This document shows, piece by piece, positions 52,778-60,989 of a stretch of DNA of 64,000 nt. Origin of the DNA: Phycisphaerales bacterium (GTDB lineage Bacteria; Planctomycetota; Phycisphaerae; Phycisphaerales; UBA5793); the NCBI GenBank assembly GCA_020852515.1, contig JADZAS010000009.1:1-64000 (forward strand). The letters run 5' to 3'. Position numbers and translations under genes: made by a program. Numbering within the stretch: the first letter of the stretch is position 1; every line of letters begins with the position of its first letter. The notes below the pieces were generated by a model. The model ran no database searches and was not told the origin of the DNA. It saw nothing but the letters and a program-made list of their open reading frames with translations.

Positions 52778-53437
52778 TCAGAAGTTCGCGCGATCACTGA
52801 CGGCGATTCGATGCCGTCTGGTCGTACGAATTTCCTGGCGCGGGGGTGAGTCTCTGGGAGCGGATGCGGGACACTCCGGAACAATGCAAACATCGGTCGC
52901 ACTTGCCGTCGCGAAGACTTGCTTTGCGAGCGCAACATGCCGGGGCATCCTGGCGTGGGCCGCTACGAGGACGCTTCCACTTCTGATTGCCGCGTCGTAG
53001 CGATCGGACTGGAGCTCGGAAAGGCCCAGGTTGACCAGGGCGCTGCTGATGCTGTCGGCGGCTCCGAAGGCAATGGCCCGCAGCGACGTCATGGTCGGTC
53101 CGGCGGCGATGAACGCGCCAAGACGGGGAATGACCAGCAGATCGATGTCGGCGAGCAAGCCCAGCGTCTCGCCCACATCTACGATGGCGCCGGCGTCGAT
53201 CGCGGCGTGTTGGAAGGCGCCGGCGTTGGCTTCGTCTGCGAAGTTACGACCGCCATGTCCATTTCCATGGAGAAGCACAGAGACGTCGTTGTCGATGAAG
53301 CCTCCCTCCTTGAGCCGAGCGACAACCTCATTGGCAATCTGAACAGACGAGACGAGACCGAAGATTGAAGTGGCCACTCGCGGTTTTCCTAGCCCAATGA
53401 GTTCGCGGAGTGACTGATCTTGAAAGATGGTTGCCAT
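52778..53437 (-). CDS. YflT/general-stress-protein-like protein
   Basis: 219 aa from ATG 53437. The N-terminal part has a ferredoxin-like small fold (VATSIFGLVSSVQIANEVVA), the middle a glycine- and alanine-rich hydrophobic segment typical of general stress proteins (AIDAGAIVDVGETLGLLADI, LLVIPRLGAFIAAGP) and a final half (LVNLGLSELQSDRYDAAIRSG, VLVAAHA). The C-terminal tail is basic. Such proteins are induced by heat or oxidative stress. A structured-RNA element lies about 180 bases upstream on the same strand. Confidence 0.72.
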   Translation of the reverse strand: MATIFQDQSLRELIGLGKPRVATSIFGLVSSVQIANEVVARLKEGGFIDNDVSVLLHGNGHGGRNFADEANAGAFQHAAIDAGAIVDVGETLGLLADIDLLVIPRLGAFIAAGPTMTSLRAIAFGAADSISSALVNLGLSELQSDRYDAAIRSGSVLVAAHARMPRHVALAKQVFATASATDVCIVPECPASAPRDSPPRQEIRTTRRHRIAVSDRANF

Positions 53438-53619: not shown

Positions 53620-53766
53620 GTGCCAAAAACAAAAACCGACTCAGTGCAGCACATGAAGTGCGGAACTGAGTCGGTCTACTTTTCGACTGGCCGGTTGCTC
53701 GCTCAACCTGCCATTCGCTTAGTCATCCGACGACTGGAGGCGGCAATGTTGCTCGCCTACTTCTAC
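53620..53766 (-). ncRNA. Structured RNA element A with intrinsic terminator
   Basis: A minus-strand transcript of about 147 nt. A conserved GGATGACTA, a GGC-A-hairpin-G-GCC stem (hairpin GGTTG/CAACC), GAAAAGTA and a perfect 11-bp terminator stem (ACCGACTCAGT with ACTGAGTCGGT) followed by TTTTTGTTTTT. A second copy at about 56270-56415 keeps the motifs but has a different hairpin stem sequence, so the pairing covaries. It has its own sigma-70-like promoter just upstream and sits 5' of the stress-protein gene, so it could be a small RNA or an attenuating leader. Confidence 0.6.
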
Positions 53767-53772
53767 CATAGG

Positions 53773-53800
53773 AGTATACCTCATAGGGCTGCGATGTCCA
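53773..53800 (-). promoter_or_regulatory. Sigma-70-type promoter of RNA element A
   Basis: On the minus strand TGGACA (one mismatch from TTGACA) and TATACT (one mismatch from TATAAT) are separated by 16 bases, placing the start of element A near 53766. Confidence 0.55.
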
Positions 53801-53879
53801 GTGTGGAATTGAGTCCCGGCCCACAAATGTCGCGATCAGGAAAACGACCCCGCCCAAACCGTACTGAACCGCCGTATTT

Positions 53880-53918
53880 AAAGGTCGGCTCCCCCGCATG
53901 AAGTCAGGCGGGGGAGCC
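53880..53918 (-). terminator. Terminator after the collagen/OmpA-like lipoprotein gene
   Basis: A perfect 11-bp stem (GGCTCCCCCGC with GCGGGGGAGCC, 10-nt loop) 36 bases downstream of the stop at 53954, on the minus strand. The following sequence is GACCTTTAAA, so the U-run is short. Confidence 0.6.
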
Positions 53919-53953
53919 GTATCGAAAGAACAGACCTTGGGATCGCTACGGAA

Positions 53954-55741
53954 TCATGGCCGCTGCGCGTACTGGTCTGTGATGAGCAGGACTTCAACCT
54001 TGCCATCGCGTCGCATCAGAGTGTCGCCAAACGTTCCGATCGTGATTCTCGAGGCGGGAACGCCCGCGGCGATGAGGGCCGTGCGAACGGCGGCGCCTCG
54101 GCGCGTCACCAGCGCGGCATTGGCTTCTCCGGCGTTGCCGGATGGGACGGAAGCGTCAATCCCGGCCTGCAGGGACTGATTCTGCTTCATGGCCTCAGCG
54201 ATGTGAGTGATCTTGCTCGCATCGGCCGGATGAATGACGCTTTTCCCGGAGTCGAACCAGAAGTCGCGGCAGTGCATCCAGGAATCCACCACCGTGTCGG
54301 CATTGATGGGAGCCATCTCAGAGTCAATGGGCACGTCGCTGTGCACGAAGACGTCGACCCGGCCGTTGCGACGGAGCGCCGCATTGCTGAAATCCCCGGA
54401 TCGGATGCTCGCATCGGGAACACCTGCAGTGACCAGTGCAGCCCGGATCGATTCGCCCCGACGGCGAGACAGATCCGCCTGGCGTTGGTCGTCTCGTCCC
54501 AGAGCCAGGCCGTTGTCGATGCCGATTTGAATCTGCGGATGTCGTAGAGCGGTTTCGGCGATCTCACTCACCCGGCCCGCGTCGGCGCGATGAATGGCGG
54601 TCTGGCCTTCTTCGAACCAGAACTCCCGGAACAGGGTCATGCGATCGTCCATGATCGCCTGCGAATCCCAGTCGCGGGCTGGTTGTTCCCGCACCTGCTC
54701 ATCCGTTCGCAGCGGCTCGGTCCGGGCGGTCCATTCCCGCGCCTGCGGATCTGTCTTGAGAAGCAATTCAACGCGACCGTCCTGCCGGAGGCCGATGTCG
54801 CCGTACGAATCGATGCTGATTCGATCCGCGGGCACGCCCGACTGAATGAGCGCGCTGCGAACTGCAGCGGCACGGTTGCTGCTCAACTCGATGTCCCGAG
54901 GCGACGTAGCGCGCGGGTTAGTCGAGGCATCGATTCCGACCTGAAGAGAAGGGTTGCTCCGCAGGTAGGACGCGATTTCGGCGGTCATGCTTCGGTCGGC
55001 ATCTCGAATGACGGAACTGTCGGCATTGAATTGGAAGTTCCGATAGGAGGTCCAGCGCTCGACGACGCCAACGGGTCCTTGGGGTCCTGTGGGACCGATG
55101 GGGCCTGGAGCGCCTACCGCGCCGGATGCGCCAGCCTGCCCAGCGGTGCCGGCTGTGGTTCGTCCCTGGGCGCCGACTTGTCCTGCCTCACCCTGCTCGC
55201 CGGAGGCGCCGATCTGGCCGGCACGGCCTGCGGGTCCAACGAGATCGGGTCCTCGTGCGCCCGTCGGGCCGGTCGGTCCGACTGGGCCTTGCTGTCCGGC
55301 GACTCCGGCGGCGCCGGCGTGTCCATCGGCACTGGCGCCGCGAACACCCGTCTGCCCGATCGCGCCTGGCGCACCGGCGGGGCCAGTGGCTCCCGTTGCT
55401 CCGGTCGGACCGACAACCAGCCCGCCAGCCGGCCCTTGCGCGCCGGCGGGACCTCGGTCTCCGACGGGTCCGGTGGGACCGACGGCGCCCTGGGCACCGG
55501 CCACGGCGTAGCCATCTGGGCCGATCTGCCCCACAGGTCCCTGCTGACCTTGGATACCTGTCGCGCCCTCCGCGCCGCGGGGCCCGACAAATTCGATCAG
55601 CGGATCCGCCGCCACTTCCCGCGCGGGAGTGCCGCGCTGGGCGTAGCTCGTCGTGGACATGTCGTTCGCTGTGTTGTCCGGGTGACCGCAGTTGCACCCC
55701 GCTGCAAAGAGCGCAGCGCCTGTAAGAATTATTCGTTTCAT
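53954..55741 (-). CDS. Lipoprotein with collagen-like repeats and three OmpA-like domains
   Basis: 595 aa from ATG 55741. Lipobox near residue 16 (ALFAAGCNCG). Residues about 55-235 are collagen-type Gly-X-Y repeats (GPTGATGATGPAGAPG, GQQGPVGPTGPTGARG) interspersed with short breaks. Three OmpA-C-like domains follow, each starting near YRNFQFNADSSVI, FREFWFEEGQTAIHRAD or CRDFWFDSGKSVIHPAD and each with LSxxRAxxVRxALxxxGVP-type motifs. The Asp of the usual peptidoglycan site (GHTD) is replaced (GIDAS), so cell-wall binding may be altered. It is probably a long surface or periplasmic spacer. Followed by a hairpin terminator. Confidence 0.85.
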   Translation of the reverse strand: MKRIILTGAALFAAGCNCGHPDNTANDMSTTSYAQRGTPAREVAADPLIEFVGPRGAEGATGIQGQQGPVGQIGPDGYAVAGAQGAVGPTGPVGDRGPAGAQGPAGGLVVGPTGATGATGPAGAPGAIGQTGVRGASADGHAGAAGVAGQQGPVGPTGPTGARGPDLVGPAGRAGQIGASGEQGEAGQVGAQGRTTAGTAGQAGASGAVGAPGPIGPTGPQGPVGVVERWTSYRNFQFNADSSVIRDADRSMTAEIASYLRSNPSLQVGIDASTNPRATSPRDIELSSNRAAAVRSALIQSGVPADRISIDSYGDIGLRQDGRVELLLKTDPQAREWTARTEPLRTDEQVREQPARDWDSQAIMDDRMTLFREFWFEEGQTAIHRADAGRVSEIAETALRHPQIQIGIDNGLALGRDDQRQADLSRRRGESIRAALVTAGVPDASIRSGDFSNAALRRNGRVDVFVHSDVPIDSEMAPINADTVVDSWMHCRDFWFDSGKSVIHPADASKITHIAEAMKQNQSLQAGIDASVPSGNAGEANAALVTRRGAAVRTALIAAGVPASRITIGTFGDTLMRRDGKVEVLLITDQYAQRP

Positions 55742-55888
55742 CGTGTTCTCGTACTTTCTGCTTTTGGTAGTATCGGCCATCATCAGGTGGGCGGCAAACG
55801 CGGCCACACCACTCATCTTCAACATCTGAATCTATGGGGATCATCGACGTTGCCCGCCAGCCTGGGCGGAGTGAATCAATGACATAGA

Positions 55889-56171
55889 TCAGAAGCATCC
55901 CGACTTGATTTCCTCCTTGTGAGACTCTTAAGGCGCTCGATCGACGCCAACTCCTGTCGCTTGAAATCCCGCCGGCACGCCTGCATGGCCGGTCGATCCT
56001 CGGCGTTGGCGATGAACTCGCCTTAGCGCCACAGTGCATCCAGCCTCCGGCTGAGTTCGTGGATGAGATCGTGGTCGTGATCGGCGCAGCCCTGGCTTCC
56101 GCCGATATGGGCCCATTTCTCGACCGGCTCCACGCTCTCGTTGCCGCGCTGGCTCAGAATGTTGGTGGCAT
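55889..56171 (-). pseudogene. Decayed small gene (three lesions) of an unnamed conserved family
   Basis: ATG 56171 follows AAAGGA at normal spacing, then one base is missing in codon 2. In the restored frame the product reads NILSQRGNESVEPVEKWAHI, stops at a TAA (56023-56025, after LDALWR where relatives appear to have a Tyr), continues GEFIANAEDRPAMQACRRDF and then needs another frame shift near 55911-55930 to end KEEIKSGCF. The pattern is that of a roughly 95-residue conserved bacterial protein that I recall but cannot name. It seems to be inactivated. RNA element B lies just upstream. Confidence 0.65.
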
Positions 56172-56269
56172 GGTGCGTCCTTTCGCAGTGACATGGCGTT
56201 CAGGATCGGGCATGATTGCCTCAGATGGCGCCATGCATGAAGGACCATCCGAGCGGCAACTGACTTCGA

Positions 56270-56415
56270 ACGAAAAAAAAAGCCGACTTGGCCCGGCGCT
56301 GAAAACGCGCGGAGTCAAGTCGGCTTACTTTTCTACAGGCCTGTCGCCCTGGCGACCTGCCGTTGGTCTAGTCATCCGAGAGTGGAGTCAATGGCTGTTG
56401 CCACCTGCTCCACGG
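56270..56415 (-). ncRNA. Structured RNA element B with intrinsic terminator
   Basis: Second copy of element A: GGATGACTA, GGC-A-hairpin-AG-GCC with hairpin stem GTCGCC/GGCGAC, GAAAAGTA, and a 10-bp terminator stem (AGCCGACTTG with CAAGTCGGCT) followed by nine T residues. The 5' end is set by analogy with element A; a promoter here is weaker (TACGCT at the -10 position). It precedes the pseudogene at 56171 on the same strand. Confidence 0.6.
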
Positions 56416-56590
56416 ATCAATCAAGCGTACTCCGTGAATCAGAGGAAGCCAGAGAATTCTGGAAACATGGTTCCGCCGGGCATAATCTCTGCCTCGTGAT
56501 CCGCGAATCCGGACCGGGATCCATCGTGAACCGTGACCGATGCGCGCAGGCCGGCGTATCCGAGCGTTTTTCTACCCGCGGGGAAGAGTG

Positions 56591-56971
56591 ATGAAGACTC
56601 AAGGAGAGATTGAGGCCGCCGTCAGCGAGCGCATCAGTCGCTTCGAGCAGGAGTTCATTGGGCGGGGCCCACAGGAGGTTCGCACCTATCTGCTCGACCG
56701 ATTGGTCGTCATCCGACTGCAGGGCGTCCTGACCGCCGCCGAGAAGCAGCTGGTGAAGTCACTTGCGTCCGACAAGGGGCGGGATCTGCTTAAGCACGTG
56801 CGTACGCACCTGGTGGAAATTGCCCGTCCGGAGATGGAGCAACTGATTGAGTCGTGCACCGGCGCGAAGGTTGTCAGCATGCATCACGACATCAGCACCG
56901 TGACAGGTGAAGAGGTGTTTCTGTTCGTGTTGGACAGCATGCCGAGGCTGCGCGAAGTGAAGGCCAGGTGA
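56591..56971 (+). CDS. DUF2294-domain protein
   Basis: 126 aa from ATG 56591 after GGGGAAG. Opening MKTQGEIEAAVSERISRFEQ and core GRGPQEVRTYLLDRLVVIRL, LQGVLTAAEKQLV, ending MHHDISTVTGEEVFLFVLDS, matching DUF2294. Closely similar to the C-terminal half of 57026-57907, so a duplicate or a partner. Function unknown. Confidence 0.85.
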   Translation: MKTQGEIEAAVSERISRFEQEFIGRGPQEVRTYLLDRLVVIRLQGVLTAAEKQLVKSLASDKGRDLLKHVRTHLVEIARPEMEQLIESCTGAKVVSMHHDISTVTGEEVFLFVLDSMPRLREVKAR

Positions 56972-57025: not shown

Positions 57026-57907
57026 TCAGCTGTCATCCGCATCCCTGACCCTGTACGGCGGCGCCTGGCTCAGGGAGAAGACCACCACCTCCTCGCCGGT
57101 GACGCTGCTGATGTCGTGATGCATGCTGACGACCTTGGCGCCCGTGATGACCTGAATCATCGAGGAGATCTGCTTCTGAGCGGTTTCGATCAGCAGCGTT
57201 CTCACCTGCTTGAGCAGATCCCGCCCCTGCCCAACGGAACGCGTTTCGACCATGCGCTGTTCCGCCGCAGTCAAGACGCCCTGAAGGCGGACGACCAGCA
57301 GGTCCCCGATGAGGTGCGCGTGGACATCGCTTGGACCTCTTCCAATGTACTCCTGCTCGAACTGGCACATCCCGCGGCACACAGCGCCCTCGATCTCGCC
57401 CCGCGTCCTGTGCGATGCGCGCTCCGCGTCGGTCGCCCCGGAGTGGGCTCCTCGTGAATGCCGGGTCGCGCGATCCCTCGATTCCCCGGCGCACAGCACC
57501 GTCACAACCAGCCTCTCCAGGGACTGGCGCTCGAATGGCTTTTGCATCTGCGGGGCGTCGGCCAGGTCGGCGCGAAGTTGTCCCGCATCGTAACCGGACA
57601 TGATGATGAATGGAATGTCGCGCTCGCGAAGGATGTCAACCACCGGATAGGCGTATTGGCCGTGGAGATTGAGATCGAGCAGCACTCCATCCAGTCGCTC
57701 ACGCCGGCAGATGTCCTCCGCTTCCGCCAGGCGCGCCGCCGTGGCGATCACCACGCAGCCAAGCTCTTCAAGCAGCGATTTCAACGCCATCGCCACCATG
57801 CCGACATCCTCGACGACGAGCACGCGCAGCCCGCCCAGCGATTTGGCGCGGTCAGTCTCGACCGCCAGGCACTTGACTTCCACGGGCGGCTTCTTTGTCG
57901 TCTTCAT
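57026..57907 (-). CDS. Receiver-DUF2294 fusion protein
   Basis: 293 aa, ATG 57907 after GAAAGGAGAG. Residues about 27-140 form a receiver (VLVVEDVGMVAMAL, acceptor Asp in LLDLNLHGQ, Lys in QMQKPFE). After a linker, residues about 165-290 are DUF2294 (GEIEGAVCRGMCQFEQEY, GRGPSDVHAHLIGDLLVVRL, MHHDISSVTGEEVVVFSL). The pairing suggests DUF2294 as an output module for phospho-signalling, perhaps driven by the neighbouring CheB-CheR-HWE kinase, whose 3' end overlaps this gene by 56 bases. Confidence 0.88.
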   Translation of the reverse strand: MKTTKKPPVEVKCLAVETDRAKSLGGLRVLVVEDVGMVAMALKSLLEELGCVVIATAARLAEAEDICRRERLDGVLLDLNLHGQYAYPVVDILRERDIPFIIMSGYDAGQLRADLADAPQMQKPFERQSLERLVVTVLCAGESRDRATRHSRGAHSGATDAERASHRTRGEIEGAVCRGMCQFEQEYIGRGPSDVHAHLIGDLLVVRLQGVLTAAEQRMVETRSVGQGRDLLKQVRTLLIETAQKQISSMIQVITGAKVVSMHHDISSVTGEEVVVFSLSQAPPYRVRDADDS

Positions 57908-60900
57908 GGCTCTCTCCTTTCACGATCGGGAACTCAATGGTGCATTGCAGTCCCGACGACAAGAACTGCAGGTCTACTGTGCCGGCCAGATCATGTGTGA
58001 TGCTGCTTTCAATCAAGAGCGATCCGAAGCCGCGCTTTCCGACAGAAGTGATCGGCGGGCCGCCTGACTCGACCCACCTGATGCGGGCATGCGAATGGCT
58101 TTCCTGATCAATGCGCTCCCACCGTACGGCAATCGTTCCGGTTTCGTTCGACAGGGCGCCGTACTTTACGGCGTTCGTGACCAGTTCATGAAATACGAGT
58201 TCCAGGGCAATGGCCGATCCACGCGAGACCACGAGATGGCCACCCCCGATGATAATGCGAGGTGAAGCCTTGCCGACATAGGGGTCGAGTTCCCTATTAA
58301 TCATCGCACTCAGTTCGACTCCTTCGTCGCCGGGCTGGGTCAGCAGTGAATGCGCGCGGGCCAGTGCGGCCAATCTCGGCTCGAACTCGGCAAGAAACTC
58401 CGGCAGCGAGGCGCAGCGCTGGCCCAGCGCCTGGATGATCGCCTGCACCGTGGCCAGCGTGTTCTTGATGCGGTGACTCAACTCGTGCATCAGCCGCTCA
58501 CGCTGCCGCTCGCCTTTTTTGTGCTCGGTGATCTCCACAAACGTGACCACAACGCCATCGATCCGGTTTTCAGCCGTCCGATACGGCAGCACGCGGCGGA
58601 TATACGACTGCCCCTGTTCGCTGTCGACTTCCGCCTCGACGGGAACGAGTGTTTCAAGCACCTTCTTCGATGCCGGCTCAAGTTCCGAACCAGTCACGAT
58701 CGACGCCAGGTCGCTGATCGGACGGCCGATGTCCGATGGAATCAGCCGAAGCACCTGTTTGATCGCCGGCGTAAACCAGCGAATGCGGCAGGAGGTGTCC
58801 AGGAACAGCGTCGCCACTTCGGTGCTGGCCAGAAGATTGTTCAGATCGTTGTTCGTCTGCTCCACCGCCTCAACCTTGCTTCGCAATTCGTTATTGAGGG
58901 TGTTGAGTTCTTCGTTGAGCGACTGCAACTCTTCTTTGGACGTTTCCAGCTCTTCGTTCGCGGATTGAAGTTCTTCGTTGATCGAGAGCATCTCTTCGTT
59001 GGATGTGCTGTACTCCTCGATAAGGCGGTCATACTGCTCCGACACTTCGCGAAGATCCTGCCGCGTCACGCGCAGTTCCTCTTCCAGGTGATCGACGGTC
59101 TGGCCGGATTGGCCGCGGCCGTCGTCATCTGCAGACTCCCGCGTCGCCGCATCCGCCGGCGCCGTCGGCTCTTCGAAGCTGACGAGCAGCAACGGCGACT
59201 CGTCGCGCGACCGGCTGATCGGGCTGACGGTCAGTGTCACTGGCCGTCGCCGCTCGCCTTCCTTGAGGTAGGCGTTCGTTGTCGTCGCGGATCGTCGCTC
59301 ACTGTTCGCCTCGAGAATCGCATGGCGCAGCGGAGGCCTGAGCCCCGGCGACACGAGCGCCAGCAGGTCGCGCGTCGGCTTGCCGCCCGGCTGTGAGAGA
59401 TACCGCGAGGTGTTGCCGTGATACACCAGCACCTGATGATCCGCGTCGATCACCACCGAAGGCGGGGCGTACCGATCCAGCAGTGCCCGATGCGCCATCG
59501 TCTGATATTCATCACGCTCGGGATGAAAACCCCTCGGCTGGCCCGGGGGCCTGCGCCGCTGATCCGTCACCGAAAACCTCGGAAAGTCAAACCGCCCGGC
59601 GTGGACCACCCGGCGAGAGCGGAAGATGCGCCACGGGGCCGAGAGCGGCTCGAACAGCTCCCCCTGCATGCCGATCGTCTCCGCGCTGCCCAGAAACAGC
59701 GTTCCCCCGTCGCGCAGCGCGAAATTGAACATCCCCAGTATCCTGCGCTGCGTGTCCGGCTCGATGTAGATCAGCAGGTTGCGGCAGATGATCATGTCCA
59801 TCCGTGAAAAAGGGGGATCCCTGATCACGTTATGCCGGGCGAAGACAATCATGTCGCGCAGGTTCTTTTTCACCTCATAGTGCGAATCGCGGGCGATGAA
59901 AAACCTCGTCAGCCGCTCCTGAGACACCTGCGCCGCGATCGTGTCCGGATACACACCAGCCCGTGCGACTTCGAGACTGTCTGACACGTCAGTCGCGAAG
60001 ACCTGCGGCTTGATGTGCTTACCAGAGCGATCGATCGCCTCCGCCAGAATCATGGCGATCGTGTACGCCTCTTCACCCGTGGCGCAGCCGGCCGACCAGA
60101 CTCGAATCTCCTCTCCGTTCTCGCGCCGGGCCACCAGCGGCTCGACGACCTGTTTGTTCAGTTCCTCCCAAGCCTTCGGATCGCGGAAAAAACTCGAAAC
60201 ATTGATCATCAGATCGCGATACAGCGCCGCGGCCTCCGTCGGATCGTCGCGCACGATTCTCGCATACGAATCGAAATCATCAACGTTGCGCAGGCTCATG
60301 CGACGCTGCGTGCGCCGCAGCAGCGTCGGCCGCTTGTAGTCCGCGAAGTCGTAATCGAACTGACTGTGCAGGAGGCTGAGAATACTCTGCAGCGTGGCGG
60401 AGTCATCATCGGATTCGTCCGCACCTGATTTCCCTCCATCCGGTTCGCGGCCGCGTTCCGCGATGCAATCCACACGCGGCCGCGCCGCCAGTCTCTGCAA
60501 GACCTCGGGCATCTCCGCGATGGGCAGGACGAGATCCACCAGCCCGGTGCTGATCGCATTGCGCGGCATGCCGTCGTACTCCGCCGTCTCCGGGTCCTGC
60601 ACGATCACCATGCCGCCTTCGGTCTTGATCGCGGAGATGCCGCGCGACCCGTCCGACGCCGTGCCGGAGAGAATGATCGCAATCGCGCAATCGCCGTACT
60701 CCGACGCCATCGAGTCATAGAGCCGATCGATCGGTCTCCGCTGGCTTCGCTCCGCTTCGGTGTCGAGCAAGCGCAGATGACCGTCCTTCACGACCAGGTC
60801 GCGATTGGGAATACACACGTAAACATGATTCGGCTCAATCGCCAGCCCGTCCTGCGCCGGCCGCACCCTCAGCGATGTGTGCCGCGAGAGGAGATCGACG

Positions 60901-60989
60901 AGATGGCTTTCGCTCTTCGGGTCGAGGTGTTGAACGACGATGAATGCCATGCCCTCAAGAGAGGATCCAGCGTCGAATAGCGCCATCAT
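57852..60989 (-). CDS. CheB-CheR-PAS-HWE histidine kinase
   Basis: 1,045 aa counted from ATG 60989. N-terminal CheB methylesterase-like domain (ILSGTASDGSRG), CheR methyltransferase (RIWSAGCATGEEAYTIAM), coiled-coil region rich in EELQSANEELETSKEELQ, PAS, then an HWE kinase (MHELSHRIKNTLATVQAIIQ, FHELVTNAVKYGALS, IRWVESGGP). The frame stays open upstream to about 61113 and includes the CheB GASAGG motif, so the true start lies upstream of the ATG, but no ATG, GTG or TTG is found there: a rare start codon or a small frameshift near the CCCC run at about 61030 must be considered. It overlaps the downstream receiver gene by 56 bases and probably phosphorylates it. Confidence 0.85.
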   Translation of the reverse strand: MMALFDAGSSLEGMAFIVVQHLDPKSESHLVDLLSRHTSLRVRPAQDGLAIEPNHVYVCIPNRDLVVKDGHLRLLDTEAERSQRRPIDRLYDSMASEYGDCAIAIILSGTASDGSRGISAIKTEGGMVIVQDPETAEYDGMPRNAISTGLVDLVLPIAEMPEVLQRLAARPRVDCIAERGREPDGGKSGADESDDDSATLQSILSLLHSQFDYDFADYKRPTLLRRTQRRMSLRNVDDFDSYARIVRDDPTEAAALYRDLMINVSSFFRDPKAWEELNKQVVEPLVARRENGEEIRVWSAGCATGEEAYTIAMILAEAIDRSGKHIKPQVFATDVSDSLEVARAGVYPDTIAAQVSQERLTRFFIARDSHYEVKKNLRDMIVFARHNVIRDPPFSRMDMIICRNLLIYIEPDTQRRILGMFNFALRDGGTLFLGSAETIGMQGELFEPLSAPWRIFRSRRVVHAGRFDFPRFSVTDQRRRPPGQPRGFHPERDEYQTMAHRALLDRYAPPSVVIDADHQVLVYHGNTSRYLSQPGGKPTRDLLALVSPGLRPPLRHAILEANSERRSATTTNAYLKEGERRRPVTLTVSPISRSRDESPLLLVSFEEPTAPADAATRESADDDGRGQSGQTVDHLEEELRVTRQDLREVSEQYDRLIEEYSTSNEEMLSINEELQSANEELETSKEELQSLNEELNTLNNELRSKVEAVEQTNNDLNNLLASTEVATLFLDTSCRIRWFTPAIKQVLRLIPSDIGRPISDLASIVTGSELEPASKKVLETLVPVEAEVDSEQGQSYIRRVLPYRTAENRIDGVVVTFVEITEHKKGERQRERLMHELSHRIKNTLATVQAIIQALGQRCASLPEFLAEFEPRLAALARAHSLLTQPGDEGVELSAMINRELDPYVGKASPRIIIGGGHLVVSRGSAIALELVFHELVTNAVKYGALSNETGTIAVRWERIDQESHSHARIRWVESGGPPITSVGKRGFGSLLIESSITHDLAGTVDLQFLSSGLQCTIEFPIVKGESHEDDKEAARGSQVPGGRD

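Follow-up and report, generated by a model that had tools for sequence, protein, structure and literature searches.

An uncatalogued class of probable leader RNAs in Planctomycetota, predicted to switch between terminator and antiterminator upstream of stress-related genes

Transcription attenuation is a known mode of gene control, and the known leader classes usually govern one metabolic or operon-specific theme. The target RNA of ANTAR proteins consists of two hairpins whose hexaloops contain a conserved A1 and G4. Sigma factors control general stress regulons such as those of SigB, RpoS and PhyR-EcfG.

For Planctomycetes and Proteobacteria, the Rhodopirellula-1 motif is tabulated as a candidate cis-regulatory RNA without an Rfam entry (Weinberg et al. 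2010, PMC2864571). The elements described here form a single leader class, which precedes dozens of stress genes that are unrelated to one another; little is known of how their phylum regulates its stress response. They are best explained as cis-acting leaders that control stress-related genes of Planctomycetota by transcription attenuation, a reading to which we assign a probability of about 0.78.

Two elements on the minus strand and their relatives

The window, a 64,000-nt stretch of a contig from a Phycisphaerales bacterium, contains two elements on the minus strand, E1 (56384-56276, with a U-run to about 56273) and E2 (53735-53629, with a U-run to about 53622). Their parts are as follows.

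56382..56413, minus strand: P1 of E1, a variable 5' hairpin GTGGAG...CTCCAC with inner TGGC-AACA-GCCA (sequence and RNA fold)
56320..56379, minus strand: core/antiterminator hairpin of E1 with the basal helix UCGG...CCGA and the conserved GGATGACTA and GAAAAGTA (conservation in about 130 members, pair counts, truncated-transcript folds)
56273..56326, minus strand: terminator hairpin of E1, AAGCCGACTTG...CAAGTCGGCTT, and U-run; the 5' arm overlaps the core
53773..53800, minus strand: promoter-like site of E2, TGGACA-16-TATACT (10/12 consensus matches)
53738..53758, minus strand: P1 of E2, 5' hairpin AGGCG...CGCCT (sequence and RNA fold)
53671..53730, minus strand: core/antiterminator hairpin of E2 (same basis as the core of E1)
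53622..53676, minus strand: terminator hairpin of E2 and U-run (RNA fold and family pair counts)

Both elements, which had been noticed in a first-pass annotation, are real. The pattern GGATGACTAN{20,50}GAAAAGTA that they share matches twice in the window and exactly twice genome-wide, and is absent from 100 dinucleotide shuffles; furthermore, E1 and E2 fold far better than shuffled sequences (z = -4.9 and -5.7). The 5' hairpin, which is present in both, was missing from the first description. It had also been claimed that pairing in the hairpin is kept while the sequence changes. This conclusion holds, but the register was wrong: in the correct one, the middle hairpin reads GGTCG/CGACA in E1 and GGTTG/CAACC in E2 and contains a single compensated pair (C-G to U-A). 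About five more compensated pairs are found in the terminator stem. The terminator of E1 (56232-56330 on the plus strand) is nearly palindromic, so the opposite strand was also scored by the covariance model; this hairpin may stop transcription in both directions.

A covariance model seeded with E1 and E2 and run on 61 genomes detected eight more copies, including a third, diverged one on another contig of the source genome (C22:8937-9067), and none in four other genomes of the source genus. With the ten-copy model, further members were identified across the phylum. In addition, a scan with a degenerate pattern over 84,980 species, each represented by a single genome, returned 118 stretches. 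According to the record titles, nearly all of the 80 that were listed belong to Planctomycetota, both Phycisphaerae and Planctomycetia; also among those listed are one Sumerlaeia record and one unlabelled bacterium. Two non-planctomycete pattern matches, labelled Bacteroidales (L085) and Streptomyces (L090), do not match the covariance model, and it is on the failure of these two that the specificity of the family rests. No pattern match was found in viral contigs. Counted from their titles, the listed records span about 55-60 species-level genomes, several of which have 3-8 copies; Planctomycetales bacterium ZRK34 and Bythopirellula polymerisocia Pla144 are among the carriers. In total, about 130 members score above 41 bits. 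The covariance search proposed in the first-pass annotation was thus productive, yielding about 130 further copies with strong covariation that stand upstream of genes.

At least 10 of 343 sampled genomes of the phylum contain the element, a lower bound because few candidates were scored per genome; the distribution is therefore patchy. Dense clusters are found in L072/L110 (CAITIS010000091.1), L056/L100 (JANYKD010000239.1) and L022: single contigs contain six or more copies with a different gene after each, and one 15-kb contig has three copies. As had been suspected, the elements correspond to no Rfam class: no Rfam 15 family exceeded its gathering threshold in the window, and no match at E<=10 overlapped an element in ten loci. 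A literature search yielded no account of such a planctomycete leader. E1, E2 and their relatives are an uncatalogued class of probable leader RNAs in Planctomycetota that is absent from Rfam 15.

The core hairpin and its overlap with the terminator

The core is one long hairpin broken by internal loops, in which A and G residues are strongly conserved and stand opposite each other in the combinations A10/G62, G12/A60, A16/G56, A22/G50 and A27/G45. In a 31-pair structure, 94.3% of the cells of 124 members are standard pairs, compared to 32-44% after a shift of the partners by 1-3 columns. Changes on both sides are seen among these members in 28 of the 31 pairs. The model to which the alignment had been fitted was simpler than this structure; the helices that it lacked (columns 13-15:57-59, 19-21:51-53 and 24:48) emerged from mutual information. 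The apical loop (columns 34-38) has a variable length and no conserved letters. An ANTAR-type target RNA was rejected, since dual hexaloops were not seen and the apical loop is of this variable kind. Likewise, CsrA titration is not favoured, because the core has a single strongly conserved GGA, although csrA is one of the targets.

The basal helix CGG (columns 7-9):CCG (columns 63-65) is paired in every member and varies too little for real covariation support. The one exchange, in the copy L022/L089, places A-U on both sides of the basal helix; the 3' arm of the terminator did not follow. An extended antiterminator (columns 4-6:66-68) was dropped, as its covariation was not beyond chance.

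The CCG of this basal helix is at the same time part of the terminator's 5' arm. When the RNA was cut before the 3' arm of the terminator, the antiterminator helix formed with a mean probability of 0.97 in 129 members, and with more than 0.5 in 98% of them; shuffling the first 12 nt of the truncated RNA lowered this value to 0.08-0.12. In the full RNA, the probability is 0.02 for the antiterminator and 0.98 for the terminator. The prediction is therefore that of a bistable RNA whose end state is termination. Structure prediction and the invariant pairing suggest that antiterminator and terminator are mutually exclusive, for which the compensatory evidence is thin.

In this family the intrinsic terminator stands before the start codon. 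One might assume that the elements are unregulated promoter-plus-terminator cassettes, repeatedly copied together with a block of stress genes, in which the terminator merely insulates the gene. The patchy, clustered distribution and the absence from the four genomes of the same genus agree with such copying. However, pairing is conserved in helices that a plain terminator does not need, and a gene with a terminator standing between its promoter and its start codon would stay silent in the absence of regulation, which makes a cassette of this kind highly improbable.

Downstream genes and the orientation of the elements

Two genes of the window follow the elements.

52778..53437, minus strand: gene after E2, 219-aa general-stress-protein-like product, ATG at 53437, about 190 nt past the terminator (translation)
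53954..55741, minus strand: OmpA/collagen-like lipoprotein gene, the next intact gene past E1 (Pfam)

It had been proposed that both elements lie 5' of a short gene. For E1 the nearest frame is indeed short, but it appears to be broken: in this gene (about 56190-55880, minus strand; frame ILSQRGNESVEPVEKW...DALWR*GEFIANAE...) a TAA interrupts the frame, and a clear start codon is missing. The next intact gene is about 500 nt away, past the broken one; its frame as listed reaches 55825, and the start at 55741 was picked by eye. Homologues of the encoded lipoprotein follow the copies in L026, L053, L077 and L081. The gene after E2 is not short, having 219 codons. Its product has no Pfam match and, judged by eye, resembles proteins of the GSP17M/YflT type.

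According to Pfam, MpsC is found in 20 of 104 cases among the first downstream proteins of the family, KaiC and response regulators in 6 each, OmpA and collagen as well as sigma-70 in 4 each, and BON in 3. Other families are CsbD, DUF2934, CsrA, Dps-like ferritin, DUF883, DUF3309, transglycosylase-associated, fasciclin, TspO and a weak YflT; DUF892 genes follow the third copy of the source genome and one copy in another genome (G031). Many of these families sit in general stress regulons elsewhere; the label "stress gene" as used here derives from family annotation.

The first-pass annotation had left two possibilities, a small RNA or an attenuating leader. As a multicopy family of trans-acting small RNAs, the elements would possess their own promoter and terminator, give rise to an RNA of about 150 nt and act on distant targets, with the neighbouring genes being incidental. 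The promoter-like sites upstream, the strong terminator, the several copies per genome and the complete folding into a terminated RNA are all compatible with this. Promoter-like sites occur upstream of the elements at a preferred distance in 34 cases, compared to 10.7 +/- 4 in shuffles, and that of E2 stands at the enriched distance. In 8 of 129 members, a motif near TTCCAGAATTC precedes the core by 69-88 nt, namely in the window (about 56464, minus strand) and in L037, L070, L072 (two copies), L091, L110 and L111; it is possibly an activator site.

The orientation of the neighbours argues against small RNAs. A homology-supported downstream gene lies on the same strand in 70 contexts and on the opposite strand in 18. 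Of the latter, twelve overlap with the element itself, which probably makes them antisense artefacts; after dropping them, 70 of 76 genes are on the same strand (binomial p 6e-15, kinship among copies ignored). A small RNA would place no constraint on the orientation of its neighbours, whereas here 70 same-strand genes are opposed by 6. Start codons (ATG with Shine-Dalgarno sequence) peak 0-100 nt past the terminator at 0.34 per element; on the minus strand the value is 0, and at 1 kb further downstream it is 0.03. Also contrary to small RNAs are the many unrelated downstream families at similar spacing from the element and the conserved overlap of core and terminator. Small RNAs are thus unlikely, and cis leaders are clearly favoured by the strand bias, the start-codon peak and the predicted antiterminator that excludes the terminator. 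Several points stand against attenuation: the gene downstream of E1 appears broken and the next one is about 500 nt off, the promoter match of E1 is weak, some copies have no clear gene nearby, the basal CGG:CCG helix hardly varies, columns 4-6:66-68 show no covariation, and MpsC was not detected in two genomes that carry the element.

The candidate factor and comparison with known systems

If the elements are attenuating leaders, RNA polymerase would start upstream of the core, as the promoter-like sites suggest, and the variable 5' hairpin would be made first, followed by the core hairpin with its basal CGG:CCG helix. Unless the core is held, the far more stable terminator is predicted to form and to stop transcription, so that termination would be the default state. 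A stress-responsive factor that binds to the conserved internal loops of the core could keep the CCG sequestered; the U-run hairpin would then be blocked and the downstream stress gene transcribed.

There are two leading candidates for this factor, and the first one is an MpsC-domain protein. The window encodes MpsC and signalling proteins next to E1.

56540..56971, plus strand: MpsC (PF10057) gene, divergent from E1 (Pfam)
57026..57907, minus strand: receiver-domain/MpsC fusion, candidate regulator (Pfam; same arrangement in L022)
57852..60989, minus strand: CheB-CheR-PAS-HWE histidine kinase protein, upstream in the operon of the fusion (Pfam; same arrangement in L022)

MpsC is the commonest neighbour of the element family and flanks many copies; where it lies upstream of the element, it is divergent in 21 of 26 cases. 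Among the 343 genomes of the phylum, 23 contain MpsC, 10 the element and 8 both (Fisher p 5e-9). MpsC was not detected in two element-carrying genomes, and the four genomes of the same genus have neither. The operon of kinase and receiver-MpsC fusion, which is common to the window (57026-60989) and L022 (3257-7304), suggests that MpsC is a signalling output domain or protein. The predicted structure of MpsC is a confident model (pLDDT 93) for which Foldseek gave no match at E<=0.001 and VIA-align reached Z-scores of at most 7.1, to unrelated proteins; neither method revealed a convincing match to an RNA-binding protein, a result that speaks neither for nor against RNA binding. The PDB contains no sequence relative, and a literature search on DUF2294/MpsC gave nothing usable. 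It is tentative to consider an MpsC-domain protein as the factor, and MpsC may merely be a frequent target.

The second candidate, which is comparably tentative, is a small-molecule ligand. The elements would then be metabolite-binding riboswitches, a special case of the attenuating leaders favoured here. The highly conserved internal-loop nucleotides within covarying helices and the two genomes with the element and no detected MpsC are in line with this, as are the genes that follow certain variant RNAs. Several MpsC genomes in which the model found no match carry such variants beside MpsC, which have the same switch layout with a GGC:GCC basal helix overlapping the terminator. In L154, L156, L157, L160 and L165, they come after MpsC and share its strand, and the covariance model does not reach them. 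They are followed by Sbt_1, a Na+-dependent bicarbonate transporter, in L165, by DUF4914 in L156 and, as a weaker case, by PEPCK in L155. Because bicarbonate transporter or PEPCK genes are preceded by some of these variants, the ligand could be related to inorganic carbon. On the other hand, the targets of the family are linked by a stress theme and not by a metabolite. In L159 (2247-3335), the gene after MpsC encodes a Proton_antipo_M protein, an arrangement that recalls inorganic-carbon uptake systems elsewhere; in some genomes, MpsC may thus have a link to carbon uptake.

More far-reaching, and doubtful at present, is the idea that part of the phylum controls much of its general stress response by a common RNA attenuator in place of an alternative sigma factor, and that MpsC-domain proteins, among them the receiver-MpsC fusion driven by the HWE kinase, represent RNA-binding antiterminators of a new family that act on this attenuator. 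The analysis offers a concrete regulon and a predicted switch, together with MpsC, a protein of uncertain role, as the candidate partner.

With ANTAR targets and the RAT elements of LicT/SacY, the family shares the leader before the gene, the mutually exclusive antiterminator and terminator, and possibly the control by a receiver-domain protein. In contrast to these systems, it has a single long hairpin, in which the internal loops carry conserved A/G and a dual hexaloop is absent, its protein is a candidate, and its regulon comprises many unrelated stress genes. Like transcriptional riboswitches with intrinsic terminators, the elements have a conserved core that overlaps the terminator and occur in several copies per genome; they differ in that they match no Rfam family, that their targets are joined by stress and not by one metabolite, and that the ligand is hypothetical. 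The regulons of SigB, RpoS and PhyR-EcfG contain overlapping kinds of targets (CsbD, BON, DUF892, GSP17M-like), and an HWE kinase lies beside the locus here; the shared signal, however, is a leader RNA past the promoter and not a recognition sequence of a sigma factor. Compared by its table entry, Rhodopirellula-1 is reported in Proteobacteria too, whereas no proteobacterial match is among those listed here (PMC2864571). The type of mechanism is known. Judged by the databases and papers searched, in which Rhodopirellula-1 is the one published candidate for comparison, the class appears to be new, as do its regulon and possible protein partner.
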